A DNA stretch of 64,000 bases from Opitutia bacterium. GTDB taxonomy: Bacteria; Verrucomicrobiota; Verrucomicrobiia; Opitutales; Opitutaceae. A model generated the notes under the pieces. That model had not been told where the DNA came from. It ran no database searches and saw only the letters and a list, made by a program, of their open reading frames with translations. The translations under genes were made by a program, and so were the position numbers. Positions 7,181-63,235 of the stretch are shown here, one piece after another (the first letter of the stretch is position 1; each line of letters begins with the position of its first letter). The stretch is taken from assembly GCA_016187945.1 (NCBI GenBank), contig JACPIT010000006.1:248001-312000 (forward strand), read 5' to 3'.

Positions 7181-7191
7181 GGATCGCCCCC

Positions 7192-8244: not shown

Positions 8245-8321
8245 TGCTGCGCACCGCAAGAATCGTCAGCCCTTCCCAGCGACTTACATTTTTCCTCCCG
8301 CTTGCGCGTGCCCGCCACTAG

Positions 8322-8335: not shown

Positions 8336-8337
8336 CT

Positions 8338-42886: not shown

Positions 42887-43056
42887 GGCGCGAGCGCAGT
42901 ATGCTCCGCGCAGGGCAAAGTCGCTGCGCAGCGCTTGGCCTCGCCGGGGCGTAAATTGGGGAATCGATAAGCGGCGCGAAACGACCGGGTGTTTTTCCCG
43001 GTGCATCAGCGGCGCTTACGCGCGGCGCGCAGAGCCGGCATCTCATGCGCGGCGGA

Positions 43057-43125: not shown

Positions 43126-43139
43126 CTCGGAACCCGGAA

Positions 43140-45359
43140 TCAACCCTTCGGCGGTGCGTCCGGGCCCGGCGGCGTCTCGCTCGACGGCGGCTCCGGCGTC
43201 TTCGGCTCCGCGGCCTTCATCTCTTCGAGTTGCAACGGGTGTTCGTCCATCATCTCGCGCTCCGACATGCGGCCGGTGAGCCAGGCGAGGTTCATCGGAT
43301 AAACGTCGGGGTTGAAGATGACGAAGTAGAAGTGCCAGACGATGATCGCCAGCGTCGCCAGCACCGCCTCGTAGAAGTGGATGCTGCGCGAGATATCGAA
43401 GCCGAGCTTGCCGAGCAGCCCCATCGAAGTGTTGTCGAACCACAAGATGAAGCCGGTGAGCGTCATCACGATCATGCCCCAGACCATCGCCCAATACTCG
43501 GCTTTCTCGATGTAGCAGAAGCGCGGGAACTGCGGTTTCTCCTTCGAGAGACCGAGGTTGAACTTGAGCACCTTCCACGGATCGGTGACGTCGCGCCAGC
43601 GCGGCAGAAGGTCGAAAAACAACTGCCGCCCGTGCGCGGTGAACGCGAGGTAGCCGATGTGCCAGAGCGAAACCGCCAGGATCACGATGCCCGACACGCG
43701 GTGGCCGAGGCTGCGCAACTCGAACGCCTTGCCGCTGAGATTGCGCACGCCCACGACCCACCACGCCTCCGGATAACGCAGCATGAAGCCGGTCACGACG
43801 AGGCCGGTGAAGCTGAGGCCGAGCACCGCGTGCTGGAAGCGCTCGTTCACCGTCATGCGCAGGTAGAGGCGATGCGCGACGTGCGGCTCCTCGATGACGC
43901 CCTTCTGCATGGCGAGTTTGCGGCGCGTCTTCCGGTAGAAATCGAGGCCGTTGTGCAGCGTCATGCCGCCGATCACGGCGACGATCAGCACGACGTAGAG
44001 GTTCGCGATCCAGTAGAGGATCGGCGCCTGCTCCTTGTTCGTCTCGTCGGCGTGGACGCGGCCGAGCGCGAAACGCGTGTTGGCGCCCGGGTGACACTCG
44101 CCGCAGGTGCGCGCGAGGTTGTCGCGGTGAATCGTCGACGCGGGGTCTTGCTGCGACTTGATCGCGTGTGCGCCGTGGCAGCTCGCGCAATTCACCACCT
44201 CCACCGCGCCGCCGCGCACGGCGAGGCCGTGATAGCTGTCGGAGAAGGTCCGGAACGAGTCGCTCGAGAGACCGTATTTTTTCGTGAGCCGGACGGACGA
44301 GTGGCAATCGGCGCAGACCTTCTGCGCGAGGTTCGATTTGTGGACCGGCGAATTGGGATCCTTGTGGCCTTTGATGTCGTGCTCACCATGGCAGCTCGTG
44401 CAGCTCGCCGAATCGACGTTGCCCTTGGCGAGTGCTTTCGCGTGCACGCTAGCCTCGTAGTCGGACGCTTGGTCCTGGTGGCACTTCGCGCACGTCTCGG
44501 AAATGTGCGTGCGGTTGACGTTGGCGCCGGCGACGGCGGCGCGGTTCATCTGGTGCGCGCCGTGGCAATCGACGCAGCTCGCGGCCTTCTCCTTGCCCTC
44601 GCGCAACGCGGCGCCGTGCACCGATTGCTCGAAATTCGCGACAAACTTCGCCCCCATCGCGGGCTGGTCGGCCACTTCGGGTTTCTCGACGTGGCACGAC
44701 TCGCATAGCTTCGCCTGCGCGAGCTTCAGCTCGACCGTCATCGCCTGCCCTTTTCGCGCCGCAATCGGCTGTCGGTGACACGACAGGCAATCCGGTGCGG
44801 TGCGGCGCTTCTGGAGGCCACGAGGCGCGTGCGCGGACGCGAGATAGTCTTTCGTCGCGGCCTCGTGGCACGCGCCGCAGGACTTCGCCTGTGTTTCCGG
44901 AGCGAAAGAAAAATCCGCGTGCTTGACCGCGACGCTCTCGTGCGTGCCGTGGCAACCGACGCAGGACGTGTCTTGGTCGCGCGGTGGATTCCCGAGGGCG
45001 AGCCGCGAGTGAAACGCGTGCGTCTTCGCGACTTTGTCGTGGCAGCTCCGGCAATCGACCTTCGGCACGCGCGGCTCGTGCTCGGCTTCCTTGATCGTCG
45101 AGTGGCACTCGACGCACGCGAGTTTGCCGTGAATCGATTTGGCAAATTCCTCGGGCCGCACGCCCACCCACTCTTTCGGCTGGCCGGCCTTGCGCGACTT
45201 GAACTCGGCTTCGTGGCACTCGAGGCACTCGGAATTCGCGACGGCCGGCGGCGACTTGGCCGGCGGCGGCGATTCCGCCGCCGCGAGCGACACCGCCGCA
45301 CCCAGCACCCACGTCAGCGCGCTTCGCACCGACCAAGAAATGTATCCGCCGAGCTGCAT
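43140..45359 (-). CDS. Multihaem (13 CXXCH) cytochrome c fused to a membrane cytochrome b, CbcL-like paralogue
   Basis: 739 residues. Signal peptide region LTWVLGAAVSLAAAESPPPA. Thirteen CXXCH motifs follow in about residues 47-425 (CLECH, CVECH, CRSCH, CVGCH, CGACH, CLSCH, CESCH, CVDCH, CAKCH, CTSCH, CADCH, CASCH, CGECH). The first haem segment (NSECLECHEAEFKSRKAGQP, KEWVGVRPEEFAKSIHGKL) is nearly the same as in the neighbour at 40679-42886, so the two arose by duplication. The C-terminal membrane cytochrome b has helices around YWIANLYVVLIVAVIGGMTL, HAVLGLSFTGLVVTGFML, HRVSGIVILAVSLWHIGYL and a Pro-rich tail (ETPPGPDAPPKG). Probable quinol oxidase passing electrons to periplasmic haems. Divergent from the cytochrome c operon that starts at 45561. 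Confidence 0.88.
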   Translation of the reverse strand: MQLGGYISWSVRSALTWVLGAAVSLAAAESPPPAKSPPAVANSECLECHEAEFKSRKAGQPKEWVGVRPEEFAKSIHGKLACVECHSTIKEAEHEPRVPKVDCRSCHDKVAKTHAFHSRLALGNPPRDQDTSCVGCHGTHESVAVKHADFSFAPETQAKSCGACHEAATKDYLASAHAPRGLQKRRTAPDCLSCHRQPIAARKGQAMTVELKLAQAKLCESCHVEKPEVADQPAMGAKFVANFEQSVHGAALREGKEKAASCVDCHGAHQMNRAAVAGANVNRTHISETCAKCHQDQASDYEASVHAKALAKGNVDSASCTSCHGEHDIKGHKDPNSPVHKSNLAQKVCADCHSSVRLTKKYGLSSDSFRTFSDSYHGLAVRGGAVEVVNCASCHGAHAIKSQQDPASTIHRDNLARTCGECHPGANTRFALGRVHADETNKEQAPILYWIANLYVVLIVAVIGGMTLHNGLDFYRKTRRKLAMQKGVIEEPHVAHRLYLRMTVNERFQHAVLGLSFTGLVVTGFMLRYPEAWWVVGVRNLSGKAFELRSLGHRVSGIVILAVSLWHIGYLAFTAHGRQLFFDLLPRWRDVTDPWKVLKFNLGLSKEKPQFPRFCYIEKAEYWAMVWGMIVMTLTGFILWFDNTSMGLLGKLGFDISRSIHFYEAVLATLAIIVWHFYFVIFNPDVYPMNLAWLTGRMSEREMMDEHPLQLEEMKAAEPKTPEPPSSETPPGPDAPPKG

Positions 45360-45560: not shown

Positions 45561-45893
45561 ATGAAACTGTTTCGTTCGCTGTTGGTTGTTGCCGGCTGCG
45601 CCTGTGGCGCGGCCGTTTACGCCGCCGATGTCGCGGCCAACTGGGAAAATCACTGCGCGAGTTGCCACGGCGCCGATGGCCGCGGCGACACGAAGATGGG
45701 AAAGCGCCTCAAAATCAAGGATCTCACCTCCGCCGAGGTGCAGGCTTCGTTCACCGATGCCGCGGCGATGAAGGCCGTCAAAGAAGGCATCCGCGACGAG
45801 AAGACCGGCAAACTCGCGATGAAGCCGATCGAAGGCCTCTCCGACGAAGAAATCCAGGTGCTCGTCGCCCACGTGCGCTCGCTGAAAAAGTAG
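45561..45893 (+). CDS. Small monohaem cytochrome c
   Basis: 110 residues: signal peptide (MKLFRSLLVVAGCACGAAVYA), then a class I cytochrome c fold with one haem site (NWENHCASCHGADGRGDTKMGKRL), probable methionine ligand near GKLAMKPIEGLSDEEI, and the C-terminal helix VLVAHVRSLKK. Soluble periplasmic carrier. First gene of a four- or five-gene plus-strand operon with a tetrahaem cytochrome, ferredoxin and NrfD-like protein; 23 bp to the next gene. Related to, but clearly diverged from, the small cytochromes at 51837 and 54324. Confidence 0.92.
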   Translation: MKLFRSLLVVAGCACGAAVYAADVAANWENHCASCHGADGRGDTKMGKRLKIKDLTSAEVQASFTDAAAMKAVKEGIRDEKTGKLAMKPIEGLSDEEIQVLVAHVRSLKK

Positions 45894-45916
45894 CCGCTCC
45901 CGTCCCCCCCGCCGCC

Positions 45917-46591
45917 ATGACCTACGTTCCGAAAGCTCCGCAGGAACAGGCCGTGCGGCGAACCAACTGGGTGTTGATCGCAGTCAGCGCGGGCTTCTTC
46001 GCGTTGGCGGCGGCGTTTCTCTCCGATCTTTGGGGACGGCCCGTGCCGCGCCCGGAGATTCCGCTCGTCGACCCGGCGTTCCTCGATCAAACGGCGTGGC
46101 GCAAGTCCTACGCCGATCTCGTGCGCGCGAAGGAGGATTTGTCCGACTTCAGTTGCTACACCTGCCACGACAAGGGCGAGCCGCCGCCCCTGCGTTTCGA
46201 CGAACAGCACAACCTCCTCATCCCCGAGGAGCACGAGACGATCAAGATGGGGCACGGTTCGCACAACCGAAACAACCTGTGCTTCAACTGCCATAACGAG
46301 ACGAACCTCCTCTCGTTTTCCACGCGCGAGAAAAGCGAGCTGACGTTCGCGCAGAGCTCGCGCCTCTGCGGCAGTTGCCATGGCCCGAACTACCGCGACT
46401 GGGAAGCCGGCGTGCACGGCCGCTTGAACGGCTACTGGAACAAATCGCGCGGCGAGGCGCGCCGCCTCGACTGCGTGAACTGCCACAATCCCCACTCGCC
46501 GCGCATCCCCACCCGCCCGCCCGCGCAGCCGCCGCACTCGCTGCGCGCTCCGGCCGCCGCGAGCCACGCCGCCGCCGCCCCCACGCACTGA
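45917..46591 (+). CDS. Membrane-anchored tetrahaem cytochrome c
   Basis: 224 residues from the ATG at 45917. One N-terminal anchor (NWVLIAVSAGFFALAAAFL), then four CXXCH motifs: CYTCH, CFNCH, CGSCH and CVNCH, with a probable distal histidine stretch HETIKMGHGSHNRNN. The C-terminal 30 residues are Pro/Ala/His-rich and look unstructured. It lies directly upstream of a four-cluster ferredoxin and an NrfD-like membrane protein, the gene order of quinol:cytochrome modules such as Geobacter Cbc4 (CbcSTU). It probably takes electrons from the ferredoxin/NrfD pair and passes them to the small cytochrome c. Confidence 0.88.
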   Translation: MTYVPKAPQEQAVRRTNWVLIAVSAGFFALAAAFLSDLWGRPVPRPEIPLVDPAFLDQTAWRKSYADLVRAKEDLSDFSCYTCHDKGEPPPLRFDEQHNLLIPEEHETIKMGHGSHNRNNLCFNCHNETNLLSFSTREKSELTFAQSSRLCGSCHGPNYRDWEAGVHGRLNGYWNKSRGEARRLDCVNCHNPHSPRIPTRPPAQPPHSLRAPAAASHAAAAPTH

Positions 46592-46593
46592 CC

Positions 46594-47541
46594 ATGTCCA
46601 CGCCCGATTCCCTGCCCCCTGCGCGGCCGACCGAGCAGTTGATGAACCGCCGGACGTTCCTGCGCTCCACCGCGGCGTTCGCCGGCCTCAGCGCGCTCGC
46701 CGCCAGCCTGGCGCCGCTCCGCGAGCTGAGTGACTACTCCTCCGTCGAGGAGTTCATGCAGAAATACTACAAGGAGATGACGCCGGACGACATGGCCAAG
46801 GTGCTCAAACGCATCGAGGCCCAGGTCGAGCGCCAATACGGCATCCGCCCGCACGTGCGCGACCTGAAGCCGATGAACGGCGTCGAGTTCGTCTATTGCC
46901 TGAACCTCACGCGCTGCATCGGCTGCCGCAAATGCGTGCACGCCTGCGTCGCCGAGAACAACCAGTCGCGCGATCCCGAGATCCAATACATCCGCGTCCT
47001 GCGCCTGCCGCACGGCTCGATGGATCTCGAGAAGGCCGAGCACAACTACAACCCCGAGGCCGTGCCGGAGAAGGGCTATTTCTACATGCCCGTGCAGTGC
47101 CAGCAGTGCCACAATCCGCCCTGCGTGAAGGTCTGCCCGGTCAACGCGACTTGGCAGGAGCAGGACGGCATCACGGTCATCGACTACGATTGGTGCATCG
47201 GCTGCCGCTACTGCGAGGCCGCGTGCCCTTACTGGGCGCGACGCTTCAACTTCACCAAGCCGCAGATTCCGAAGGAGCGGCTCAATCCGAACATGTCCTA
47301 CCTCGGCAACCGGCCGCGACGGCAGGGCGTGATGGAGAAATGCCACTTCTGCATCCAGCGCACGCGCGACGGCCGTTACCCGGCGTGCATGGAGGTTTGC
47401 CCGGTCGGCGCGCGCAAGTTCGGCAACATCCTCGATCCCGAGAGCGAGGTTTCCTACATCCTGCGTGAGAAGCGCGTCTTCATCCAACTGAAGGAGGAAA
47501 TGGGCACGAATCCCCGCTTCTTCTACTACTTCGAGAAATGA
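46594..47541 (+). CDS. Ferredoxin-type electron transfer subunit with four [4Fe-4S] clusters
   Basis: 315 residues from the ATG at 46594, two bases after the previous stop codon. Tat signal NRRTFLRSTAAFAGLSALAA, so the folded protein is exported. Cysteine blocks CIGCRKCVHAC, CQQCHNPPCVKVC, CIGCRYCEAAC and CHFC...CMEVC together supply 16 ligands for four clusters. Same family as HybA, NrfC, DsrO, TtrB and PsrB. It should sit on the periplasmic face of the NrfD-like protein encoded next. No molybdopterin catalytic subunit accompanies it. Confidence 0.92.
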   Translation: MSTPDSLPPARPTEQLMNRRTFLRSTAAFAGLSALAASLAPLRELSDYSSVEEFMQKYYKEMTPDDMAKVLKRIEAQVERQYGIRPHVRDLKPMNGVEFVYCLNLTRCIGCRKCVHACVAENNQSRDPEIQYIRVLRLPHGSMDLEKAEHNYNPEAVPEKGYFYMPVQCQQCHNPPCVKVCPVNATWQEQDGITVIDYDWCIGCRYCEAACPYWARRFNFTKPQIPKERLNPNMSYLGNRPRRQGVMEKCHFCIQRTRDGRYPACMEVCPVGARKFGNILDPESEVSYILREKRVFIQLKEEMGTNPRFFYYFEK

Positions 47542-47592
47542 TTCCCGCGGCGGCGGCGTCCGCGCTCGAACGACCGCTCCCCCCCTCGCCCC

Positions 47593-48876
47593 ATGATCCA
47601 AGCTTCCCGCGATTACCTCACGTTCCTCTGGCGCTGCGCGCGCATCGCGTTCGTCGGCGACTGGCGCTACTACACCTGGATGGGCGTGCTCACCGTGTTC
47701 TGCCTGCTCGGCTTGAACGCCTACTGCAAGCAACTCGTCCACGGACTCGTCGTCACCGGCATGAGCGACGAAGTTTCCTGGGGCGTCTACATCGCCAACT
47801 TCACGTTCCTCGTCGGCGTCGCGGCCGCCGCGGTGATGATGGTCATTCCGGTCTACATCTACGACAACGAGGAGCTGCACGATCTCGTGATCTTCGGCGA
47901 ACTGCTCGCCGTCGCCGCGATCTTCATGTGCCTCGCGTTCGTGACCGTCGACCTCGGCCGACCCGATCGCTTCTGGCATCTGATTCCCGGGATCGGACAG
48001 ATGAATTTCCCGCGGTCGATGCTCAGTTGGGACGTCATCGTGTTGAATGGCTACCTCCTGCTCAACGTCCACATCTGCGGCTACCTGCTCTACTGCCGCT
48101 ACCAGGACAAGAAGCCGGCAAAGTGGTTCTACATTCCCTTCGTCTTCACCGCGATTCTCTGGGCGGTGTCGATCCACACGGTGACCGCATTCCTCTACGT
48201 CGGCCTCGGCGGCCGCCCGTTCTGGAACGCCTCGATCGTCGGTCCGCGCTTCCTCGCCTCGGCGTTCACCGCCGGCCCCGCGATCATCATTCTCGCGCTG
48301 CAGGTCATCCGCAACGTCACGCACTACCACATCACCGACAAGGCGCTGCTGACGCTCCGCGGCATCGTGCAGGTTTCGATGATCATTAACGTGTTCCTGC
48401 TCGTCTGCGAAGTGTTCAAGGAATTCTACTCCGGCACGGCGCACGGCATCTCGGCGCGTTACCTTTTCGTCGGCCTCGAGGGCCACCACGCGCTCGTGCC
48501 GTGGATCTGGACGGCGATCGTGTTCAACCTGATCGCCATGGTGATCCTCGTGATGCCGCTCAGCCGCAGCCTGAAATTTCTCAACGTCGCCTGCATCCTC
48601 AGCATCGTCGGCATCTGGATCGAGAAAGGCATGGGCCTCGTCATCCCCGGCTTCACGCCGACGCCGCTCGGCGCGCTCGTCGAATACACGCCGAGCCTGA
48701 ACGAGACCCTCGTCAGCCTCGGCATCTGGGCGTTCGGCCTGCTCGCCTACACGGTTTTCCTGCGCATGTCGGTGCCGATCCTCCAGGGCAAACTCTCGCG
48801 CGCGAACGAGAAGATGCCCGAGCCCGATACCGAGGAAGACGACGACGCGCCGGCGCCCGCGCCAACGGCGCACTGA
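47593..48876 (+). CDS. NrfD/PsrC-family integral membrane quinol-interacting subunit
   Basis: 427 residues with about ten hydrophobic helices (e.g. WGVYIANFTFLVGVAAAAVM, WFYIPFVFTAILWAVSIHTV, HALVPWIWTAIVFNLIAMVI) and a charged C-terminal tail (PEPDTEEDDDAPAPAP). Family traits include LAFVTVDLGRPDRFWHL, FPRSMLSWDVIVLNGYL and IHTVTAFLYVGLGGRPFWN. NrfD-type proteins exchange electrons between quinones and the periplasmic ferredoxin partner without haem. It completes the cytochrome/tetrahaem/FeS/NrfD module; a small unknown gene follows 23 bp later. Confidence 0.92.
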   Translation: MIQASRDYLTFLWRCARIAFVGDWRYYTWMGVLTVFCLLGLNAYCKQLVHGLVVTGMSDEVSWGVYIANFTFLVGVAAAAVMMVIPVYIYDNEELHDLVIFGELLAVAAIFMCLAFVTVDLGRPDRFWHLIPGIGQMNFPRSMLSWDVIVLNGYLLLNVHICGYLLYCRYQDKKPAKWFYIPFVFTAILWAVSIHTVTAFLYVGLGGRPFWNASIVGPRFLASAFTAGPAIIILALQVIRNVTHYHITDKALLTLRGIVQVSMIINVFLLVCEVFKEFYSGTAHGISARYLFVGLEGHHALVPWIWTAIVFNLIAMVILVMPLSRSLKFLNVACILSIVGIWIEKGMGLVIPGFTPTPLGALVEYTPSLNETLVSLGIWAFGLLAYTVFLRMSVPILQGKLSRANEKMPEPDTEEDDDAPAPAPTAH

Positions 48877-48899
48877 AATCCGCCACCGCTCTCCACGCC

Positions 48900-51715: not shown

Positions 51716-51780
51716 GAAAAGCAACCGGCGCGGACCTTGCGATCCGCGCCGGCGTCACTAACCTATGAACCTGGGATAAC
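51716..51780 (-). terminator. Terminator-like repeat after the cytochrome c gene, family M copy 1
   Basis: The perfect 10-bp stem CCGGCGCGGA / TCCGCGCCGG (51725-51734 with 51743-51752) is followed on the minus strand by TTGCTTTTC. Flanks (CGTCACTAACCTATGAACCT) are shared with the copy at 52628-52693, so the whole unit is duplicated. Confidence 0.65.
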
Positions 51781-51836: not shown

Positions 51837-52172
51837 TCAGGGTTTCAACTGCCGGATGAAAGCGACGAGATCCTTGCACTCCTGCTCGGAGAGCTCGCCC
51901 TTGTAGCCCTTCATGCGCTCTTTGCCGTTTTCCTTCACGCCGTCGACGATGGCGACGAGCATCTTGTCGTCCTTCATCTCGGCCTGCACCTTGGGGTCGG
52001 TGTAGTCGCGCACTTTGAGTTTCTTGCCTTGTTTGGTCTGAGCCTTGCCGTCCACGCCGTGGCAGGACGCGCAGGAATTTTCCCAATTTTCGGCGGTGGT
52101 CGCGGCGAACGAGGCGCCCGCGGTAAACGCCAGCGCGAGGCCGGCGAGAGCGATCTTCGAGACAGTTTTCAT
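51837..52172 (-). CDS. Small monohaem cytochrome c, copy 1 of a near-duplicate pair
   Basis: 111 residues: signal peptide (MKTVSKIALAGLALAFTAGA), haem site NSCASCHGVDGKAQTKQGKKL, probable Met ligand in KERMKGYKGELSEQECKD, C-terminal helix LVAFIRQLKP. Very similar along its whole length to the gene at 54324-54662. Periplasmic electron carrier, probably between the inner-membrane ImcH-like or CbcL-like proteins and the outer-membrane conduit. It is followed by a terminator-like repeat that also follows the ImcH-like gene. Confidence 0.92.
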   Translation of the reverse strand: MKTVSKIALAGLALAFTAGASFAATTAENWENSCASCHGVDGKAQTKQGKKLKVRDYTDPKVQAEMKDDKMLVAIVDGVKENGKERMKGYKGELSEQECKDLVAFIRQLKP

Positions 52173-52627: not shown

Positions 52628-52693
52628 GAAAAGACAACCGGCGCGGACCTTGCGATCCGCGCCGGCGTCACTGACCTATGAACCTAGGGTAAC
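52628..52693 (-). terminator. Terminator-like repeat after the ImcH-like gene, family M copy 2
   Basis: Same CCGGCGCGGA / TCCGCGCCGG stem (52638-52647 with 52656-52665) and same flanks as 51716-51780; on the minus strand it is followed by TTGTCTTTTC. It lies 38 bp after the stop of the gene at 52731. Confidence 0.65.
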
Positions 52694-52730: not shown

Positions 52731-54233
52731 TCACTTGCCCTGGATGCCGCCGTTGTGGCAATCGGCGCACTTGAGCTCTTCGTCGTATTCGCCGCCGGGG
52801 TGTTTGAACTCGAGACCGGTGGGGGAAATCGTCGTCAGCTCAGCCATCTTGCCTTGAGCGATGATCGAGTGGCACGAGGTGCAGTCGCTGGCTTTCACGA
52901 GTTCGCCGGACTCGGTCTTGTGCTTGTCGTCGTGGCAGCGGAAGCAACCGGGCCAGTCCTTGTGACCGATGTTGTTCGGGTAGATGCGCCAGTCGGCTTT
53001 GCGCTCGGGGAAAATCGTCTGCGCGTAGACTTGCTGCACGCCGGCGATGAGCGCGGGGAGATCGGCGTCGTCCCGGAATTTGTTGCGGAGGAAGTCGGCG
53101 ATCTTCTGCGACGCGTCGGCGGAGGTGGTGAGATCCTTCTGCGTCATGGCCTGCACGGCGACGCGTTTCACGTTGGGGAATTTCGTCGGAATCGTGCCGA
53201 GTCCCATGGCGCGTTCGACGGCGTCGTTGGCGGTGGGGAAGACGTGCGCGGGACGGTTGTGGCAATCGATGCAGTCCATCTCGCGAACGGCGCCGGCGGG
53301 CGGCTCGCCCTTGAACTCTTCGTTGCGGTAGATGCGAGCGGAGCCGTCCTTCTTGTTCGTGACACGCATCCAGACGATGTCCTGGCGATCGGCGTCCGCG
53401 GCGTAATATTCGACGGTGCTGTCGGGCGAGACGTGCCAGTGGATGCCGGCGAGAGGGCTGCCAGGGCGGCCGGAGTTCACGTGCATCAGCATGCGGATCG
53501 AGACGGCGGTGTTCTTCTTGTCCGACAGGAAGTGATCGAACGACATGTCGATGTTGCCGTGGAATTTTTCCGGCCAGTGGCATTTCTCGCAGGTCTCGCG
53601 CGCGGGGCGGAGATTGTGGACGGGGGTGTCGATCGGGCGGTTGTAGTTGTCGAGCACGTAGCCGTAGAGCTGGCGCGTGCCGTTGAGCTTGGCCTTGATG
53701 AAGGCCGCGGCGCCGGAGCCGACGTGGCATTCGACGCACTCGACGCGAGCGTGCGCACCGCGCTGGTAGGTCTGAAACTCGGGGTTCATCGCGGCGTGGC
53801 AAACCTGGCCGCAGAACTGTGTGGACTCGGCGTAGTGGTAGGTCTGGTAGCTGCCGAAGGCGGACAGCATGATGAAGAGCAAGCCGCCGAATCCGAAGAG
53901 CGTGATGTTGCGGCGTTGGGTGGGGTTCGACCAATCGAGGCGCCACTTGTCGGGGACGGTGGCGGCGTGCTTGATGCCCCAGCGGCGTTGCGCCCACGCG
54001 CCGAAGACGGCGAGAGCGATGCCGGCGATGAGGAAAACCGGCGCGACGATATACGTGAAGATGCCGAGGTAGGGATTCTTTTCTCCCTCGGTGAAATCCA
54101 TCCACACGAGCAGCGCGAACGAGAAGAGCGCTCCCGTGGCCAGGACCGCGCCGGCGGCGCTGATCCAGTTGTTGAAGTTCGACCGCGGCTTGAGCGGCGG
54201 TGTGCGTGGTTCTTGGGGCGAATCGGTGGACAT
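52731..54233 (-). CDS. NapC/NirT-type heptahaem inner-membrane cytochrome (ImcH-like)
   Basis: 500 residues. Three N-terminal membrane helices (WISAAGAVLATGALFSFALL, YLGIFTYIVAPVFLIAGIAL, NITLFGFGGLLFIMLSAFGS) precede a periplasmic haem domain. Haem sites: CGQVCH (a CX3CH site, the first and NapC/NirT-like one), then CVECH, CEKCH, CIDCH, CFRCH, CTSCH and CADCH, seven in all. Three helices, a NapC/NirT start and seven haems are the description of Geobacter ImcH, the quinol oxidase used with high-potential extracellular acceptors; homology is inferred from layout. It lies in the same direction as the small cytochrome, barrel and eight-haem genes upstream, but a terminator separates it from them. 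Confidence 0.85.
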   Translation of the reverse strand: MSTDSPQEPRTPPLKPRSNFNNWISAAGAVLATGALFSFALLVWMDFTEGEKNPYLGIFTYIVAPVFLIAGIALAVFGAWAQRRWGIKHAATVPDKWRLDWSNPTQRRNITLFGFGGLLFIMLSAFGSYQTYHYAESTQFCGQVCHAAMNPEFQTYQRGAHARVECVECHVGSGAAAFIKAKLNGTRQLYGYVLDNYNRPIDTPVHNLRPARETCEKCHWPEKFHGNIDMSFDHFLSDKKNTAVSIRMLMHVNSGRPGSPLAGIHWHVSPDSTVEYYAADADRQDIVWMRVTNKKDGSARIYRNEEFKGEPPAGAVREMDCIDCHNRPAHVFPTANDAVERAMGLGTIPTKFPNVKRVAVQAMTQKDLTTSADASQKIADFLRNKFRDDADLPALIAGVQQVYAQTIFPERKADWRIYPNNIGHKDWPGCFRCHDDKHKTESGELVKASDCTSCHSIIAQGKMAELTTISPTGLEFKHPGGEYDEELKCADCHNGGIQGK

Positions 54234-54260
54234 GGTCGTGGAATTGATTCAGCGGGGCGG

Positions 54261-54298
54261 AAAAAAGAGCCGACGGTCGCAGGGACGGCCGTCGGCTC
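54261..54298 (-). terminator. Rho-independent terminator after the cytochrome c gene
   Basis: On the minus strand the stem GAGCCGACGG / CCGTCGGCTC (10 bp, 54289-54298 with 54267-54276) is followed directly by six T residues. It lies between the cytochrome c (54324) and the ImcH-like gene start (54233), so the latter may have its own promoter. Confidence 0.85.
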
Positions 54299-54323
54299 TC
54301 GAGAATGCCGTGTCAGGTGGCGA

Positions 54324-54662
54324 TCAGGCCTTCAGCTTGCGCACGAAGGCGACGAGGTCTTTCGCGTCCGGTTCGGACAGCTCGTCCTTGAAGCCTTTCA
54401 TGCGCTCCTTGCCGTTGTCGCCTTTGACGCCGTCGAGGATGGCTTTGGCCATCTCGTCGTCCTTCAGCTCGGCTTGAATCTTGGCGTCGGTGTAATCCTT
54501 CACCTTGAGTTTCTTGCCTTGCTTGGTCTGGCCCTTGCCATCCGCGCCGTGGCAGGAGGCGCAGGAGTTTTCCCAGTTCTCGGCGGCGGTGGCAGCGTAG
54601 GAGCTGCCAGCCGCGAAAACGAGGACGACGCTGGCGAGGGCGATCTTGGACGTGGTTTTCAT
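54324..54662 (-). CDS. Small monohaem cytochrome c, copy 2 of a near-duplicate pair
   Basis: 112 residues: signal peptide (MKTTSKIALASVVLVFAAGS), haem site NSCASCHGADGKGQTKQGKKL, probable Met ligand in KERMKGFKDELSEPDAKD, C-terminal LVAFVRKLKA. Differs from the copy at 51837-52172 mainly by conservative changes. It follows the porin gene by 54 bp and probably belongs to the same transcript as the barrel and the eight-haem protein; a strong terminator follows it. Likely periplasmic shuttle of the conduit. Confidence 0.93.
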   Translation of the reverse strand: MKTTSKIALASVVLVFAAGSSYAATAAENWENSCASCHGADGKGQTKQGKKLKVKDYTDAKIQAELKDDEMAKAILDGVKGDNGKERMKGFKDELSEPDAKDLVAFVRKLKA

Positions 54663-54716
54663 GCAGGTCGGATTTTGCGATCGTGGTTTCGTTGAGCGGA
54701 GCGGGAGCGGTCCGCG

Positions 54717-56921
54717 TTAGAGGGCGTGATCGAACGAGATGTAGGCCATCGGGCCCTTGAAGTTCGTGTTGCCGCCGGTGGTCTGGTTCTCGGAGTTGAA
54801 GTAACCGACCTTGAACTGGCCGACGAGCTTCTCGTTGAAACGATGCTTCAACGCGAGCGCGTAGGTGTATTCCTTCACGCCCGCGCCATACCAGACCGTC
54901 GCGGCGTTCGGCACCGAGTAGTTATCGGCGCGGTAGAACGTGTATTGGATGGAGGCCTCGGTGTCCTTGCTGATGGCGTAGCCCGTGATGAGGCTGCCGT
55001 TGCGATAGTCGTTGTCGGCGTTGCGGAGCACTTCGTTGCCGAGGCCGCCCGCGACGGGATAGGCGGTCTTGATCGTGTTGTAGGCGGCGTTGAAGTTCGC
55101 CTGGACAAACGTGGACGCGTTCGGAGCCCAGTCGATCGTCTCGCCGAACTGGTAGTTCTTGGCGTCGTTGCTGGTCATCGAGGTGCCGCCGTCGATGGTG
55201 AGGTCCATCTTGCCGGTCTGGTGCACGAGGCGCGTCGTGAAGGAGAGATTACTAGCGGGCTTGTAGATCGCGCTCAGCTTCTGGCCGAAGAACTCGTAAC
55301 CCATGACGAAGCTGTCGCCGGCGGAAGTGTTGTAGCCGTAGAAGCCGTTGGTGTGGTCCTTGTAGAAGACCTCGCCGCGGAGAGTCAGAGCGGGAGCGAC
55401 CGTCCAGTTGGCGCCGAACTTGTAGTGGGCGTGGTTGAGCTTCACGTTGTCGTAGCTCGTGGTCGCGCTGCCGAGGCCGCCGCCGGTGGTGGCGCTGGTG
55501 CTGGTGCCGTATTCGTCGCCGGGCGAGTGGCGATAGTCGAAACTGCCGTAGAACGCGACGTTCTTGATGCCCGTGTAGCGGAGTTCCGCCTCGGGAATCC
55601 ACGATTTCTCGGAACGATCGGCGACGTTCGGCGCGCTGGCGGTGATGACCGTGGTTGCGCCCGTGGCCTGATCGACGCGTGTGCTGGTATAGAGCGTCGT
55701 GTTATGGCCGTCGATGTCGGTCTTCTCATACTTGAGCGCGACGTGGCCGGTGAAATCGGAGCTCGGCTTGAATTTCAGGCCGACGTTGGCGGCGAGAACC
55801 TTCTCGTTCACGCTGCCGTCGGTGGTCTTGTAGGAATAAGCCGGGCGACCGGTCGCGCCGACGAAGCCGCCGACGACGTTGACCGTGCCGATGGCGGTCG
55901 GGAACTTGGTCATCATCTGGCGATCGCCGCCGAGATCGGCCGAGCCGTCCGAGTAGAGCAGGCCGCCGAAGACGGAGATCGTCTCGGTGAACTTCGTCTC
56001 GAACTTGCCGGTGTAGCTGGTCGTGCTGCCGTCGTAGTTCTGCACGTCGTAGCCGACGATCTCGTTGGCGATCGTGGCGGGCGGGTAGACTTGCGGCGGG
56101 TTGGTCGAAGAGCTCTGGCGGGGATAGAGCTGCAATTCGCCGGGATAACGGATGACCGAGCGATAGTCGGAGCGCTTGGCGATGTTGTGGTTGATCTCGA
56201 ACTCGAGATCGGTGTTGCCGACGGTGTGCTTCACGCCGGCGAACCAGTTCTGCTGGCGCTCGTCCATGTCGATGTAGTTCGCGACGATCTTGCGATTCGT
56301 CGAATACGGAGGATTCAGCGCGGAGGCGCCGACGCCGTAGTAGGACGGGACGCCGGTGAAGTCGCTGTCACCCCAGATCGTGGAGTCCTTCTTGCCCGTG
56401 CGTTGCTCGTTCGTGTAGCGGAACTCGAACTTCGGGGCGTTGGGGCGCTCGATCTTGGCTTCGGCCCAGAACTTCGCGCGATCGGTGTGCAGCTCGGGGT
56501 TGCTGAGCTGGGACCAGCGATTGTTGAGCGGGAAGAAGCCGCCGATCCCCTCGTAGAACGTGCGATAACGCTTGTAGCCCATGTCGAACGAGCCGACTTC
56601 GTTCTTCGTGAGTTTGAACGCGCCGAGGTAATCCTCCTTGCCGACGAGCGCCTTGCCCTCGATGGAGAGCGCGGTCGCGTCGTCGATGTCTTTGTTGATG
56701 CGGAGGGCTTCGATGCCGTAGGCGCCGTTCTCGGGGAACTGGGCGCGGCGGGCAAAGGACGCGCCGTTGCCGGTGACGGTGGCGGTCTTGCCCGTGAGCT
56801 TGATGTAGCTGTCGTAATTCGGGAACAGGTCGGCCGCGGGTGTGGCGGCGATCGCCCCGACTACCAGCGCGAGGCTCGCGAGGAGACCGGCGCTACGAAG
56901 GGAAGTAAGAGAGAAGTTCAT
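54717..56921 (-). CDS. Outer-membrane beta-barrel, MtrB/PioB-like porin
   Basis: 734 residues: signal peptide (LASLALVVGAIAATPAADLF), then alternating amphipathic strands with many Y, F, N, K and G, such as NEVGSFDMGYKRYRTFYEG, GFFPLNNRWSQLSNPELHTD, RKIVANYIDMDERQQNWFAG and the last strand GPMAYISFDHAL. Size, strand-rich composition and the neighbouring eight-haem protein match porins of porin-cytochrome conduits (MtrB, PioB, OmbB), which let a multihaem cytochrome cross the outer membrane. The CxxC pair near the MtrB N-terminus is absent. Its start lies 18 bp after the stop of the eight-haem gene, so they are cotranscribed. Confidence 0.8.
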   Translation of the reverse strand: MNFSLTSLRSAGLLASLALVVGAIAATPAADLFPNYDSYIKLTGKTATVTGNGASFARRAQFPENGAYGIEALRINKDIDDATALSIEGKALVGKEDYLGAFKLTKNEVGSFDMGYKRYRTFYEGIGGFFPLNNRWSQLSNPELHTDRAKFWAEAKIERPNAPKFEFRYTNEQRTGKKDSTIWGDSDFTGVPSYYGVGASALNPPYSTNRKIVANYIDMDERQQNWFAGVKHTVGNTDLEFEINHNIAKRSDYRSVIRYPGELQLYPRQSSSTNPPQVYPPATIANEIVGYDVQNYDGSTTSYTGKFETKFTETISVFGGLLYSDGSADLGGDRQMMTKFPTAIGTVNVVGGFVGATGRPAYSYKTTDGSVNEKVLAANVGLKFKPSSDFTGHVALKYEKTDIDGHNTTLYTSTRVDQATGATTVITASAPNVADRSEKSWIPEAELRYTGIKNVAFYGSFDYRHSPGDEYGTSTSATTGGGLGSATTSYDNVKLNHAHYKFGANWTVAPALTLRGEVFYKDHTNGFYGYNTSAGDSFVMGYEFFGQKLSAIYKPASNLSFTTRLVHQTGKMDLTIDGGTSMTSNDAKNYQFGETIDWAPNASTFVQANFNAAYNTIKTAYPVAGGLGNEVLRNADNDYRNGSLITGYAISKDTEASIQYTFYRADNYSVPNAATVWYGAGVKEYTYALALKHRFNEKLVGQFKVGYFNSENQTTGGNTNFKGPMAYISFDHAL

Positions 56922-56939
56922 GTTAGGTGTCCTCCAGTT

Positions 56940-57740
56940 TTAGTAGCGCATGGCTTTGCTCGCATTGGAGCCGTGGACGTCCTCGTGGCAGCCGGCGACC
57001 CAGCAGGTGCCGTTCTGCAGGCGGGAGCGGTGATCTTCACCACCGACCGCGATCTTGCCGTCGCCGATCACACCGGGGACGCCGCTGACGCTGACAGTCG
57101 ACGGGTGCTCCAGGTGGCAGCGCAAGCAGAGGTTCGCATCGCGCGCGACGAGCATCTTCTGATTCACCGTGCCGTGCGGATTGTGGCAGGCGGTGCAGCC
57201 TTCCTGCATTGCCTGGTGCGGGAAGAGAAACGGACCCTTCTGCGCCGTGTGGCACTTGGTGCAGGTCTCGTTCGGCGTCTCGAGTTCGGCGCCGGTGCGG
57301 GCGATGGCCTTGCCCTTGTGGAGATCGTGGCAATCGCTGCAAGCGACGTTGTCGAGCGGGTGCGCATTCGGCAGCGCGAATTCGCCGCGCTTGTCGAGGT
57401 GGCAGGCGAAGCAGGCTTCCGGAGTCTTGGCCGGATTGATCACCGTGCCCTTGCCGCCGCCCGCCTTCACGTGCACCGAGCCGCCGCCGTGGCAGGACTC
57501 GCACGAAATATCGACGCCTTTCTCGTCCTTCAACGCGAGCTTGGCGTGTGTCGCGTCAGCGAAGTGACCGCCGGTCTCCTCGTGACATTCCAGACATTTC
57601 TTGGTGCCGACATAATTCGCGCCCGCGATCTTGGGCGGGGCGACGATCGTGCGGTCGGAGACGACGCACGACACGAGAAGGAGACCCCAGATGGCGGCTC
57701 CTCCGAAGATTAGGGTGCTTTTTGTCCAGCGAGTGCTCAT
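56940..57740 (-). CDS. Eight-haem c-type cytochrome, probable lipoprotein, MtrA/DmsE-like
   Basis: 266 residues. The N-terminus (STLIFGGAAIWGLLLVSC) ends in LVSC, a plausible lipobox, so the protein may be lipid-anchored. Haem sites: CLECH, CESCH, CFACH, CSDCH, CTKCH, CTACH, CLRCH and a final CWVAGCH (CX4CH), eight in all. The segments KGPFLFPHQAMQEGCTACHN and PHGTVNQKMLVARDANLC follow the pattern of MtrA/DmsE/PioA-type cytochromes that sit in the porin. It is the first gene of the porin-cytochrome operon (57740 down to 54324). No outer-surface decahaem partner is present in the window. Confidence 0.88.
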   Translation of the reverse strand: MSTRWTKSTLIFGGAAIWGLLLVSCVVSDRTIVAPPKIAGANYVGTKKCLECHEETGGHFADATHAKLALKDEKGVDISCESCHGGGSVHVKAGGGKGTVINPAKTPEACFACHLDKRGEFALPNAHPLDNVACSDCHDLHKGKAIARTGAELETPNETCTKCHTAQKGPFLFPHQAMQEGCTACHNPHGTVNQKMLVARDANLCLRCHLEHPSTVSVSGVPGVIGDGKIAVGGEDHRSRLQNGTCWVAGCHEDVHGSNASKAMRY

Positions 57741-58024: not shown

Positions 58025-58765
58025 TCACAGTCCGAAAAACAGCATCGCACAGCCGGCGCACAACAAAGTGCCGCCGGCTGCGGCGTGGGAAAAGCGCTCG
58101 ACGCGCGGCGTGGCGATGAAGCGCACGCCTTGGCGCGCGAGCAACACGACGGCGAGCATCGAGCCGATCGTCAGCGCGCTGAACGCGCCCACGACCGCCC
58201 ACACATCGCTCCAGCTCCCTTGGGTAGCCGGATACATTACGAGCGGAATCATCGGCTCACACGGGCCGAAGACGAAAATCGTGAACAGAATCCACGGCGT
58301 CAGCTTGAAGCCCTCCGTCTCGCCGTGCGGATGGCCGTGCGCGCCGCCGTGAGTGTGCTGGTGATCGTGATCGCGACCGCCATGCGTGTGCGCGTGCGCA
58401 TGCGAGCGCGCGCGCAGCGCCTTCTTCAAACCCCACACGCCATACACCGCGCCGAACGCGATCATCGCCCACGCCGCCAGATTGCCGCGGATCTCCTCGA
58501 GAAACTGCACGCGCTCGAGCCCGAAGCCGAAGATCACCCCGGCCACTGCGAGCAGCACCGAGCTGCCGACGTGACCCGCGCCGCAGAGCGTCGTCCAGAA
58601 TGCCGTGCGCGCCACGGACCATTTCCGCGCGCGGCCCATCACGATGAACGGCAGATAGTGATCCGGTCCCGCGAGCGTGTGCAGCACCGCGACGCCGGCC
58701 GTGCTCGCCAACAGCACCGACAACTCGGGGCGACTGAGCACGTGCGCGTGAAATTCCGCGTTCAC
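58025..58765 (-). CDS. Nickel/cobalt transporter-like membrane protein (UreH/NicO type)
   Basis: 246 residues with six or so helices. The motif HTLAGPDHYLPFIVMGRARKWS, conserved among UreH/NicO-type Ni and Co transporters, is in the first pair of helices. A cytosolic or periplasmic loop is very rich in histidine (HAHAHTHGG, DHDHQHTHGG, HGHPHGE) and should bind nickel. C-terminal helices: FKLTPWILFTIFVFGPCEPM and ALTIGSMLAVVLLARQG. It lies beside the [NiFe] hydrogenase genes on the same strand, which supports nickel as substrate. Direction of transport (import or efflux) is not shown by sequence. Confidence 0.82.
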   Translation of the reverse strand: MNAEFHAHVLSRPELSVLLASTAGVAVLHTLAGPDHYLPFIVMGRARKWSVARTAFWTTLCGAGHVGSSVLLAVAGVIFGFGLERVQFLEEIRGNLAAWAMIAFGAVYGVWGLKKALRARSHAHAHTHGGRDHDHQHTHGGAHGHPHGETEGFKLTPWILFTIFVFGPCEPMIPLVMYPATQGSWSDVWAVVGAFSALTIGSMLAVVLLARQGVRFIATPRVERFSHAAAGGTLLCAGCAMLFFGL

Positions 58766-58946: not shown

Positions 58947-59480
58947 TCACGGCGCGCCCTCCGCCGCGAGTCGCGCGGCCAGGGCGTGCATCGCGTGCAC
59001 GACCTCGGGCACCGCCGCCGCCACCGGGGGCGACAGGTCGGTGCACATCGGTTTCAGCTCTTCCACGGAGACCGTGTAGAGATGGATGCGCGGCAACTGT
59101 CCCAGCAAGGCGGCCGCCGCAAAAAGATCCTTCAGCCCGAAATCATGAGCGCCGAGCCCACGCGGCAAGTCGCCCACTTGGCGGGGCTGAAGGAAAGTGA
59201 TGGTGCCGGCCGGTTGTCCGTCGCGCGTCGCGTCGACCATGACCACGTCGCGGAAGCCTTCGAGTTCGAGCAACAGGTTCACGCCGCCGGTGCCGCCGTC
59301 GAGCGTGCGCACGCCGAAGAGCGGCGGCTGCGCCTCGAGCGCCTGGACGACGTGAATGCCGACACCTTCGTCCCCCATGAGCCAGTTGCCGACGCCGAGC
59401 AGCAGGACCGTCGGCGCAGCTTGCGGCGCCGCGACGTTCGACGAAGCAGCGGCGCCGGCGAGTTCATGAGTGGAGATCAT
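58947..59480 (-). CDS. hyaD: [NiFe] hydrogenase maturation protease, HyaD/HybD family
   Basis: 177 residues from the ATG at 59480. After nickel insertion it cleaves the C-terminal tail of the large subunit. LLLGVGNWLMGDEGVGIHVV contains the nickel-binding glutamate; DGGTGGVNLLLELEGFRDVVMVDATRDG contains the second acidic ligand site, and LGAHDFGLKDLF the histidine region. Its substrate, a large subunit with a 16-residue tail, is two genes upstream on the same strand. A palindrome (59496-59586) lies between it and the cytochrome b gene. Confidence 0.92.
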   Translation of the reverse strand: MISTHELAGAAASSNVAAPQAAPTVLLLGVGNWLMGDEGVGIHVVQALEAQPPLFGVRTLDGGTGGVNLLLELEGFRDVVMVDATRDGQPAGTITFLQPRQVGDLPRGLGAHDFGLKDLFAAAALLGQLPRIHLYTVSVEELKPMCTDLSPPVAAAVPEVVHAMHALAARLAAEGAP

Positions 59481-59495
59481 TTTCTGAAATTCAAA

Positions 59496-59586
59496 GTAGC
59501 AGCCGAGGTGACGAGGCTGGCGCGCCTGTGGCGCGTTTCGCGTCTCAGCCTCCTTACGTCGGCTGCTACGCACCTCGGCTGCTACG
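59496..59586. repeat. Palindromic element, family A with doubled right arm
   Basis: GTAGCAGCCGAGGTGACGAG at the left; the right side contains both CAGCCTCCTTACGTCGGCTG and, directly after, CACCTCGGCTGCTAC. The left arm matches the second right arm best, so one copy seems to have inserted into or recombined with another. Confidence 0.8.
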
Positions 59587-59597
59587 CTTGGGTCAGG

Positions 59598-60335
59598 TCA
59601 TTGGTTCTTCGGTGCGCTGGGCTTGGTCGGCAAACTCGAGACGCCGGTCGCGTGCTCGGCCTGGACCTTGTCTTTTTCCATGAACTTCCAGCCGCCGATG
59701 ATCGACGTCAGCACGCCGTGGCCTTCCACGTAGTCGTGATACATCACGAGATAAACGTGGATGAACACGAAGACGCCGAACAGCCAAGTCACCGCGTAGT
59801 GGAAGACGCGCAGGTTCTGCTCGCTGCCGAACAGCGGCACCACCCACGCGAAGAGCTGCGGGAACCAGTGGCCGCTCATCGGCGCGTAGAGCGCGAAGCC
59901 CGACGCGACTTGGAACAGCGTGAGCAGTCCCGTGCCGGCGTAGATGAAGTAGGCCACGGAATTGTGGCCGAGCGCGCGTGCCGGCCGATGGTCCAGTTGG
60001 ACGACGTCGACCTTCAGCACATCCGCCACCTGACGCATCTGTCCGCCCGTGAGCGGAAAGAAATTGCGCCAATTCGCGTATTTGTTTCCGACGACCGACC
60101 AGTAGAGCCGGAACATGAAGTTCCCGAGGAACACGTAGGCGGTCAGGAAGTGCACGAAGCGCAGCTTGCCGAACCAGAAGTTCAGCGCCGCTTCGCCCGA
60201 GTTCATGAACGCCGGCGGGTGCGCGATGAAGTAACCCGTCGTGCACAGTGTGACGATGCAGAGCGCGTTGATCCAATGGAACCAGCGCACCGGCTGCTGC
60301 CACACGTAGACGCGTTGGTAATCGTGTGAGGGCAT
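59598..60335 (-). CDS. hyaC: Hydrogenase cytochrome b subunit (HyaC/HupC type)
   Basis: 245 residues, about four or five helices. Carries electrons from the periplasmic hydrogenase to the quinone pool. MPSHDYQRVYVWQQPVRWFHWINALCIVTL is the family N-terminus with haem-ligand histidine; further histidines in KLRFVHFLTAYVFLGN, NLRVFHYAVTWLFGVFVFIHVYLVMYHDY complete two b-haem sites. Directly downstream of the large-subunit gene (12-bp gap) in the order small, large, cytochrome b, protease, typical of membrane-bound uptake hydrogenases. Confidence 0.94.
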   Translation of the reverse strand: MPSHDYQRVYVWQQPVRWFHWINALCIVTLCTTGYFIAHPPAFMNSGEAALNFWFGKLRFVHFLTAYVFLGNFMFRLYWSVVGNKYANWRNFFPLTGGQMRQVADVLKVDVVQLDHRPARALGHNSVAYFIYAGTGLLTLFQVASGFALYAPMSGHWFPQLFAWVVPLFGSEQNLRVFHYAVTWLFGVFVFIHVYLVMYHDYVEGHGVLTSIIGGWKFMEKDKVQAEHATGVSSLPTKPSAPKNQ

Positions 60336-60347: not shown

Positions 60348-62063
<1,716 letters not shown>

Positions 62064-62083: not shown

Positions 62084-63235
62084 TTAGGATTTCGACTCGG
62101 GGTTGTCCTTCTCAGCCTGCTCGGCGTTCTCGCCGGCATGCTCGCCGATCTCGTGACGTTTGCGGACGTTCGTCATGATGGCGTGGACGGCTGCGCCGCC
62201 CGCGGAAGCCGCCAAGGCGGCGAGGCCGAGCTTGTCGGCAGTCTCTTCGATCCCAAACCCCGGGAAGGCCGGCACGCGTTGGTAGAACGGTCCGTTGTCC
62301 CAGAAATTTGCCTCGGAGCAACCGATGCACGGGTGACCCGATTGAATCGGGAAACTCACGCCGCCGTTCCAGCGGATCGTGCCGCAGGCGTTGTAGGTCG
62401 ATGGGCCGCGGCAGCCGACCTTGTAGAGGCAGTAGCCCTTGCGCGCGTTCTCGTCGTCGAAGCTTTCGACGAAGAGGCCGGCATCGTAGTTCGGGCGGCG
62501 ATAGCACGTGTCGTGCACGCGGCGCGAGTAGAACGCCTTCGGGCGCCCGAGACTGTCGAGCTGCGGGATGCGGTCGAAGGTCAGCAAGTGCACGAGCACG
62601 CCGGCCATGACCTCGGCGATCGGCGGGCAGCCCTGGACGTTGATGATCGGTTTTCCGCCGAGCACCTTGTGCACGGGCTTCGCGGAAGTCGGATTCGGCT
62701 TCGCGGCCTGCACGCAGCCGGAGCTGGCGCAATTGCCCCAAGCGACGATCGCCTTCGCGTCCTTCGCGACTTCCTCGGCGATCTGGAGCGCCGTCTTGCC
62801 GCCGATGCAACAATACACGCCGTCCTCGGCTGTCGGGATCGAGCCCTCGACGCAGAGCAGATACTCGCCTTTGAAGTTCGTGATCGTGTCGCGCAGGCTC
62901 TTCTCCGCCTGATGGCCGGACGCCGCCATCAGCGTCTCGGAGTAATCGAGCGAAACTTTATCCAACAAAATATCCGCGACGATCGGGTGCGAGCTGCGGA
63001 TGAACGATTCGCTGCAGCACGTGCACTCCTGAAAATGCAGCCAGACGACGGGAATGCGTTTCTTCGTTTCGAGCGCCTTCGTCATCTGCGCCACGCCGGT
63101 TTGCTCCAGCCCGATACAGGCGCCCATCCAGGCGCAGAACTGCAGGAAGTCACGGCGGCTCACGCCGCGCGACAACATGTGTTCGTAGATCGTCTCGTCC
63201 TTCTTTTGGGGTTTCGTTGCCGATTCGATTTCCAT
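62084..63235 (-). CDS. hyaA: [NiFe] hydrogenase small subunit, oxygen-tolerant six-cysteine type
   Basis: 383 residues. Tat signal SRRDFLQFCAWMGACIGL (R27, R28). The iron-sulfur relay is complete: proximal cluster cysteines in ECTCCSES (C71, C73, C74), WGNCASSGC (C169, C174) and GCPP (C203); medial and distal sites in HDTCYRRPNYD, GYCLYKVGCRGPSTYNAC and HPCIGCSE. C73 and C174 are the two extra cysteines of oxygen-tolerant enzymes; all six positions have a constant offset of 54 from E. coli Hyd-1 residues 17, 19, 20, 115, 120 and 149. A C-terminal helix (LGLAALAASAGGAAVHAIM) anchors it in the membrane. First gene of the operon; divergent from hypA. Confidence 0.96.
   Translation of the reverse strand: MEIESATKPQKKDETIYEHMLSRGVSRRDFLQFCAWMGACIGLEQTGVAQMTKALETKKRIPVVWLHFQECTCCSESFIRSSHPIVADILLDKVSLDYSETLMAASGHQAEKSLRDTITNFKGEYLLCVEGSIPTAEDGVYCCIGGKTALQIAEEVAKDAKAIVAWGNCASSGCVQAAKPNPTSAKPVHKVLGGKPIINVQGCPPIAEVMAGVLVHLLTFDRIPQLDSLGRPKAFYSRRVHDTCYRRPNYDAGLFVESFDDENARKGYCLYKVGCRGPSTYNACGTIRWNGGVSFPIQSGHPCIGCSEANFWDNGPFYQRVPAFPGFGIEETADKLGLAALAASAGGAAVHAIMTNVRKRHEIGEHAGENAEQAEKDNPESKS

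Follow-up and report, generated by a model that had tools for sequence, protein, structure and literature searches.

How might a bacterium of the Opitutaceae pass electrons across its outer membrane, and is the machinery that it seems to encode a novel one or a member of a known superfamily? The question is raised by a 64,000-nucleotide stretch of an Opitutia bacterium genome (GenBank assembly GCA_016187945.1, contig JACPIT010000006.1, positions 248,001 to 312,000 of the forward strand), which is referred to here as the window and in whose coordinates all positions are given. Between 52731 and 57740, four open reading frames (ORFs) follow one another on the minus strand, all of them open at the coordinates first reported, in the order octahaem cytochrome, β-barrel, mono-haem cytochrome c, and ImcH-like cytochrome. 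An initial annotation, made from the sequence alone, had read these genes as a conduit that moves electrons from quinol to the cell surface or inward from iron. The analysis described here supports the reading as an electron conduit and adds to it a kinship: the system seems to be related to the Mtr conduit but shorter. We put the probability at roughly 0.8 that it works outward, with electrons passing from quinol through ImcH- or CbcL-type proteins to the small cytochrome c, then to the octahaem cytochrome within the barrel, and finally to an acceptor outside the cell. A conduit of this kind has already been proposed for the Verrucomicrobiota by He et al. in 2017 (PMC5615132), so what is added is that the system is akin to MtrAB and lacks a haem pair, neither of which points was found in the open-licence literature searched.

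An octahaem relative of MtrA

The first gene of the cluster (56940..57740, minus strand) encodes P0004, a c-type cytochrome with seven CXXCH motifs and a final CX4CH, for eight haem sites in total, all placed after an LVSC lipobox. These features bear out its description as an eight-haem putative lipoprotein. P0004 matches two NCBIfam models of decahaem cytochromes, the GSU2203 family (1.9e-47) and the DmsE family (1.9e-40), in both cases under the curated cut-off, and all 38 aligned octahaem members match both models at E <= 1e-10. A search against chain A of PDB entry 6r2q, the Mtr complex, gave 2.5e-29 with the single sequence and 2e-43 with a profile. The PDB copy labels this chain cystathionine beta-synthase; we read it as MtrA on the basis of its haem motifs and of the paper that describes the structure. 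When the octahaem profile was compared with a profile of 18 decahaem cytochromes that adjoin PF11854 barrels, the probability was 100 and the E value 4.7e-51, and the comparison with MtrA that the initial annotation had proposed as a check thus came out on the side of homology. In this alignment, MtrA haems 3-4 stand opposite a gap and MtrA haem 10 is aligned with the CX4CH site. The first stretch of the PDB profile search also paired octahaem sites with MtrA haems 1-4, and the identity of the missing pair is therefore an alignment result and not certain. Judged by these sequence comparisons, the octahaem cytochrome is an MtrA homologue without one haem pair.

The reduced haem count is a property of the group. 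Seven CXXCH motifs and one CX4CH are present in 57 of the 58 distinct complete homologues, the exception being the protein of locus L072, and a decahaem ORF adjoins the barrel in all 18 of the reference MtrB loci examined. In a tree of the aligned proteins, the 38 octahaem and 18 decahaem sequences form two groups that are separated with full support. The octahaem alignment consists of P0004 and 37 of the 74 ORFs retrieved with the octahaem query, after cut, near-identical, and distant ones were excluded, and the decahaem set consists of the 18 ORFs (L091-L108) with exactly ten motifs. A single order (14 of 150 genomes) supplied all reference MtrAB sequences, and the DmsE, PioA, and GSU2203 sequences are not in the tree. 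Since the tree is unrooted and its references are from one order, loss of a haem pair cannot be distinguished from gain. A lipobox was found by a loose pattern in 52 of the 58 distinct complete octahaem proteins; the six without one are all from Omnitrophota, where the start codons are uncertain.

The match to the DmsE family suggests another use for the conduit, in which it would feed one particular terminal reductase outside the cell, in the way that DmsEF serves the reduction of dimethyl sulfoxide in Shewanella, and not minerals or humics. We consider this use very improbable. No DmsA-like molybdoenzyme was seen among the neighbours examined, which cover 40.7-63.2 kb of the window (1-40 kb and the genome were not searched), and the nearby iron-sulfur protein pairs with a DsrP-type membrane subunit.

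A barrel resembling MtrB

The second gene (ORF at 54717..56921, minus strand) encodes P0003, a protein of 734 amino acids. As a single sequence, P0003 had no relevant match in Pfam, NCBIfam, or the PDB, and the barrel as a profile had none among PDB sequences. An AlphaFold2 prediction from 43 sequences gave a β-barrel with a mean predicted local distance difference test (pLDDT) score of 84.3 and a predicted template-modelling (pTM) score of 0.78. The model has 27 strand segments, one of which is only six residues long (345-350); by our count, this leaves 26 long strands, in a barrel whose closure is presumed. Its first strands measure 9, 12, 11, and 10 residues, and a helix lies at 53-60 between strands 1 and 2. 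MtrB itself has 26 strands, of which the first four are shorter, and a helix between strands 1 and 2 (PMC7198977). A Foldseek search of the model against the PDB returned chain B of 6r2q at the top of 823 matches (E 4.2e-13, TM 0.58/0.65), and the other 49 of the best 50 are mainly TonB-type receptors with TM values of 0.46 or below. A Foldseek search against viral proteins had a TonB receptor as its best match and is irrelevant here.

Profile comparisons agree with the predicted fold. The barrel profile matched a profile of 14 PF11854 proteins with a probability of 99.2 and an E value of 1.3e-19 over 564 columns, whereas the control, a profile of 18 TonB receptors, gave a probability of 0.8. 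The 32 nearer barrel members taken by themselves scored 98.1 against MtrB and 0.4 against the TonB receptors, and single barrels also match the MtrB profile (L022 at 1e-5, L062 at 4e-8). Within the genome, P0003 is the sole PF11854 match at E <= 1. The barrel set consists of P0003 and 42 of 60 barrel ORFs, with cut, near-identical, and distant ones excluded; the MtrB reference set is drawn from 14 of 19 loci, leaving out L093, L101, L104, and L106 (a non-barrel frame) and L109 (a fragment); and the TonB control retains 18 of 20 loci after a length filter. On the combined strength of predicted fold and profile, P0003 is an MtrB-like barrel.

On the opposite view, P0003 would be a porin with no relation to MtrB, and the octahaem protein would be soluble in the periplasm and serve to store electrons; their adjacency would be operonic, without a conduit. 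Family models lend this some support, since the barrel reaches the cut-off of no Pfam model: its genome match to PF11854 reaches 16.7 bits where the curated cut-off is 23, hmmscan found PF11854 at E <= 0.1 in none of the 43 barrels, and PF11854 was absent at E <= 0.001 from all six genomes reached through related loci. Other barrel models are matched by some members (Porin_O_P by 3/43, OMP_b-brl by 2/43, and YadA_anchor by 7/43). The 11 most distant barrels score 23.0 against the TonB receptors, beside 99.4 against MtrB, and true MtrB itself scores 20.4 against TonB receptors in the control. Against an unrelated porin stand MtrB as the top fold match, the strong profile match, the failure of the TonB control, and the adjacency of the two genes in every locus where it could be observed. 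With these fold and profile controls, the barrel as an unrelated porin was rejected, and of all the alternatives weighed here it is the least probable, slightly behind a dedicated reductase. The MtrB/PioB-like assignment of the initial annotation is therefore upheld by profile-profile comparison and by fold, and falls short at the curated threshold of the PF11854 model.

Conserved pairing and distribution

An octahaem homologue is present in 68 of the 69 related loci L004-L072 (62 distinct sequences), and a barrel lies directly 3′ of the octahaem gene in 65 of the 65 loci with room downstream. Three loci (L041, L061, and L066) end before a possible barrel and are excluded from this count. Of the 65 barrels, 42 were used to build the profile that found them and 23 were not. 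The adjacency of octahaem gene and barrel is not due to chance. Tandem octahaem-barrel pairs also occur, three in L038 and two each in L044 and L047, and those of L044 carry two different barrel subtypes.

The octahaem loci belong to Verrucomicrobiota and Omnitrophota, and the closest named relatives are from Opitutaceae and other Opitutia. In a sample of 387 Verrucomicrobiota genomes, in which at most six candidates were scored per genome, at least 21 encode the octahaem protein, its own genome included, and 16 of these are in the same family. The initial annotation had called such conduits rare in Verrucomicrobia, which is a fair description of this frequency, although a system of this sort had already been proposed for the phylum. 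Three contigs assigned to Dechloromonas, Klebsiella pneumoniae, and Binatota (L033, L060, and L063) also have octahaem genes, which lie among verrucomicrobial sequences in the tree. Mis-binning of metagenome sequence is probable for the first two, and the Binatota contig, which is weakly placed on a long branch, could be a case of transfer.

Presumed periplasmic and inner-membrane partners

The small cytochrome was called correctly at the outset: P0002 (54324..54662, minus strand) is a class I cytochrome c match with one CXXCH and is presumed to be a periplasmic carrier. Two further mono-haem cytochromes c are encoded in the window, one at 51837..52172 (minus strand) that is similar to P0002 and one at 45561..45893 (plus strand).

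P0001 (52731..54233, minus strand), a putative seven-haem inner-membrane quinol oxidoreductase, has three hydropathy-predicted transmembrane segments, one CX3CH, and six CXXCH. Zhong and Shi (2018) describe ImcH as having three transmembrane segments, a CX3CH beside them, and 5-9 CXXCH; the ImcH of Geobacter sulfurreducens, with an adjacent CX3CH, six CXXCH, and about 500 amino acids, has the same layout as P0001. P0001 fits the ImcH architecture, in line with its original naming as an ImcH-like quinol oxidase, and its likeness to the Geobacter protein is a likeness to that published description. Seven homologues were found in six of eight other genomes at 34-39% identity, none of them known as Geobacter's. 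These carry 6-10 haem motifs, with a CX3CH in six of seven and three predicted transmembrane segments in five of seven. Zhong and Shi report no mtrAB or mtoAB adjacent to imcH; by contrast, P0001 lies near an MtrAB-like pair, and such a pair is often found beside an ImcH-like gene in the related loci.

Transcription of the four genes may not be simple. A stable hairpin followed by a T-run (54259..54300, minus strand; z -3.68), a possible terminator or attenuator, lies between P0002 and P0001, so a single transcript for four genes is not a given. This hairpin is not among the sites of the consensus terminator scan, which did find a terminator-like hairpin 3′ of the ImcH-like gene (52637..52666, minus strand); the scan found 6 terminator-like sites in the region, where shuffles predict 6.7. 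The same 30-base hairpin is repeated identically on the minus strand at 51724-51753, 3′ of the second mono-haem cytochrome c, and is apparently a dispersed or duplicated element.

Beyond the genes first reported, the window holds two CbcL-like fusions, a module of four-haem, DsrO-like, and DsrP proteins, the two additional mono-haem cytochromes, and a [NiFe]-hydrogenase. The CbcL-like proteins stand in tandem at 40679-45359 on the minus strand: one (40679..43006) has 11 haem sites and a cytochrome b-type membrane part that matches Pfam cytochrome b561 under cut-off, and the other (43140..45359) has 13 haem sites and a cytochrome b561-type membrane part. On the plus strand follow a four-haem cytochrome c with an N-terminal membrane segment (45917..46591), a DsrO-like iron-sulfur protein (46594..47541; 170 bits, with a DsrO cut-off of 200), and a membrane subunit of the DsrP/NrfD family (47593..48876; 420 bits to the DsrP model, cut-off 350). 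Neither DsrMK nor DsrAB was seen among the neighbours examined of this DsrOP module. A 160-residue protein with no Pfam or NCBIfam match is conserved with the module; together with the mono-haem cytochrome c at 45561..45893, these genes span 45561-49385. A PF09699 search of the 5.47 Mb genome gave six matches at E <= 0.01, and this island contains all of them, within 15.4 kb.

The hydrogenase, a candidate source of electrons for quinol, is encoded on the minus strand by genes for the small subunit (62084..63235), the large subunit (60348..62063), a cytochrome b subunit (59598..60335), and a maturation protease (58947..59573, ORF as listed). The match of the protease starts at residue 56, so its true start is probably later than that of the listed ORF. 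Between the hydrogenase and the octahaem gene lies a gene for a membrane protein with a His-rich loop and no Pfam match (58025-58765, minus strand), relatives of which stand beside the octahaem gene in L014-L017, L020, L023, L044, L048, L049, and L052. A DUF2339 membrane protein (49832-51535, minus strand) is likewise encoded repeatedly close to the conduit or to the DsrOP module, for example in L026, L031, L044, L046, L051, L052, and L054.

Among the 34 distinct loci of at least 12 kb within L023-L072, an ImcH-like gene is found in 19, a CbcL-like gene in 11, and a DsrOP-like module in 11, and 29 have at least one of these three types of quinol oxidoreductase. The locus in the window holds all three together with the hydrogenase.

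Electron flow and its direction

In the outward scheme, quinol reduced by the hydrogenase or by dehydrogenases would be oxidised by the ImcH-like protein, and perhaps also by the two CbcL-like proteins and the DsrOP-type module of this genome. The mono-haem cytochrome c would ferry the electrons to the octahaem wire, which would receive them at its N-terminal haem. In the putative complex, the MtrB-like barrel would enclose this wire, whose C-terminal haem would face outward and whose N-terminal haem would be held at the periplasmic mouth by a lipid anchor. In MtrA, the haem chain is 80 Å long, haem 1 lies about 20 Å inside the periplasm, and the N-terminal half is loosely held (PMC7198977). 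With nine steps over 80 Å, two haems account for about 18 Å, and the octahaem wire would be shorter than that of MtrA by this length on the periplasmic side. If the pair is missing from the N-terminal half, then haem 1 would lie at the membrane face, which would fit a lipid anchor there. Electrons would leave through the barrel. With no gene for a surface cytochrome close by, the most likely acceptors are humic quinones, chelated Fe(III), or some other soluble shuttle.

The search for a surface cytochrome was made at several levels. A 12-haem outer cytochrome is absent from the cluster. Among L004-L055, every ORF with at least three haem motifs matches a gene of the window, although the four-haem ORFs of L038 and L053 do so weakly; the flanks of L004-L022 are short. 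More distant loci have additional multihaem genes. In L059, a nine-haem ORF (6758-8545, plus strand; a weak match) directly follows the barrel and a ten-haem ORF lies upstream; in L063, a 16-haem ORF (5095-7611, plus strand) lies upstream of the octahaem gene; and smaller ones occur in L056, L067, L068, L069, and L072. The nine-haem ORF of L059 and the 16-haem ORF of L063 are candidates for extracellular partners. Some relatives may thus have a surface partner, as He et al. report, but neither regularly nor here.

Several observations count against an outward conduit. No ORF for an MtrC-like surface decahaem cytochrome (MtrC/OmcA) is present in the window, and a genome search with PF22113 and PF09699 found no MtrC-like cytochrome (TIGR03507, the OmcA/MtrC model, was not run); at E <= 0.01, PF22113 hit only the two CbcL-like genes, under cut-off. 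The structure prediction for the octahaem protein was too poor (pLDDT 47) to model the fit of wire and barrel. The hydrogenase is not a core part of the conduit, as it recurs in just three of the 34 distinct loci that reach 12 kb. Finally, mono-haem class I cytochromes c usually have a high potential, which makes the small cytochromes awkward donors to a low-potential, MtrA-like wire.

This last point leads to the main doubt, which concerns direction. Electrons might instead flow inward from Fe(II) or reduced humics through the octahaem wire to the mono-haem cytochrome c and a terminal oxidase, with the ImcH- and CbcL-like proteins serving other routes or uphill quinone reduction. The three class I cytochromes of the island suit such a direction, and the want of an MtrC-like partner in the window is shared with PioAB and MtoAB (PMC6344600). 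Baker et al. (2022) state for most of their listed organisms that the net direction cannot be inferred. On the other hand, the neighbouring gene is ImcH-like, a family found only in Fe(III) reducers in the account of Zhong and Shi, and three types of quinol oxidoreductase recur around the conduit. Class I cytochromes fit inward flow and ImcH fits outward flow, and both function and direction are inferred from sequence. We regard inward flow as unlikely, although it is the most serious competitor to an outward conduit.

Relation to known conduits

The closest parallels are MtrAB of Shewanella, MtoAB of iron oxidisers, and PioAB of Rhodopseudomonas, with which the present system shares a homologous cytochrome and barrel, the pairing of the genes, and a predicted 26-strand barrel. 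It differs from them in its eight haems in place of ten, the CX4CH motif of the last haem, the N-terminal lipobox, a barrel under the PF11854 cut-off, and the lack of MtrC. A canonical MtrCAB was rejected for want of MtrC and because of the eight haems. The Geobacter porin-cytochrome (Pcc) system OmbB-OmaB-OmcB, compared by description, also has an octahaem periplasmic partner and a porin. Its porins are described with 18-22 predicted strands, and in G. sulfurreducens a 12-haem outer cytochrome accompanies them; the absence of a 12-haem partner and the larger predicted barrel of the present system led to the rejection of this assignment.

The most direct precedent is from the same phylum. He et al. 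(2017) found clusters of a porin and an eight-haem cytochrome in six genomes of freshwater Verrucomicrobia, called them novel, and proposed electron transfer to humic substances. According to these authors, homologues of the G. sulfurreducens and Shewanella oneidensis systems are absent from their genomes; profile and fold, by contrast, tie the present system to MtrAB. Both have an eight-haem cytochrome adjoining a large porin. Several of their clusters include extracellular multihaem cytochromes, whereas none stands beside the present pair. Their list of strains with homologues includes IMCC26134, which encodes exactly one octahaem homologue at E <= 0.001, 58-59% identical, with a barrel and an ImcH-like gene beside it. 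The comparison with their Trout Bog clusters was by description, and at the sequence level it was made through this strain. He et al. (2019) again count the clusters of Verrucomicrobia among those that have no significant homology to known clusters. Baker et al. (2022) report MtrCAB in three phyla, and a term search of the main text of that paper and of the text of a 2024 survey of outer-membrane multihaem cytochromes returned no mention of Verrucomicrobia. Our search of open-licence papers likewise found none on Opitutaceae with extracellular electron transfer and none on Omnitrophota with MtrA and a porin.

Implications

A broader picture can be offered only tentatively, and we would not bet on all of its parts holding together. 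Verrucomicrobiota and Omnitrophota may share a distinct eight-haem branch of MtrAB, in which a verrucomicrobial lipid anchor replaces the periplasmic overhang. Mono-haem cytochromes, fed by interchangeable ImcH, CbcL, and DsrOP modules, would donate electrons at the membrane surface, and some Opitutaceae might couple H2 to an extracellular acceptor. If the proposed kinship is true, then a conduit that was published as novel is a member of the best-studied superfamily of conduits, and structural knowledge of MtrAB would be transferable to Opitutaceae and their relatives. With its missing haem pair, the system would be a natural test case for the length that a trans-membrane haem wire must have. 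The finding would also strengthen the case, made by He et al., for Verrucomicrobia that respire humic substances or iron where the water is anoxic and rich in carbon.

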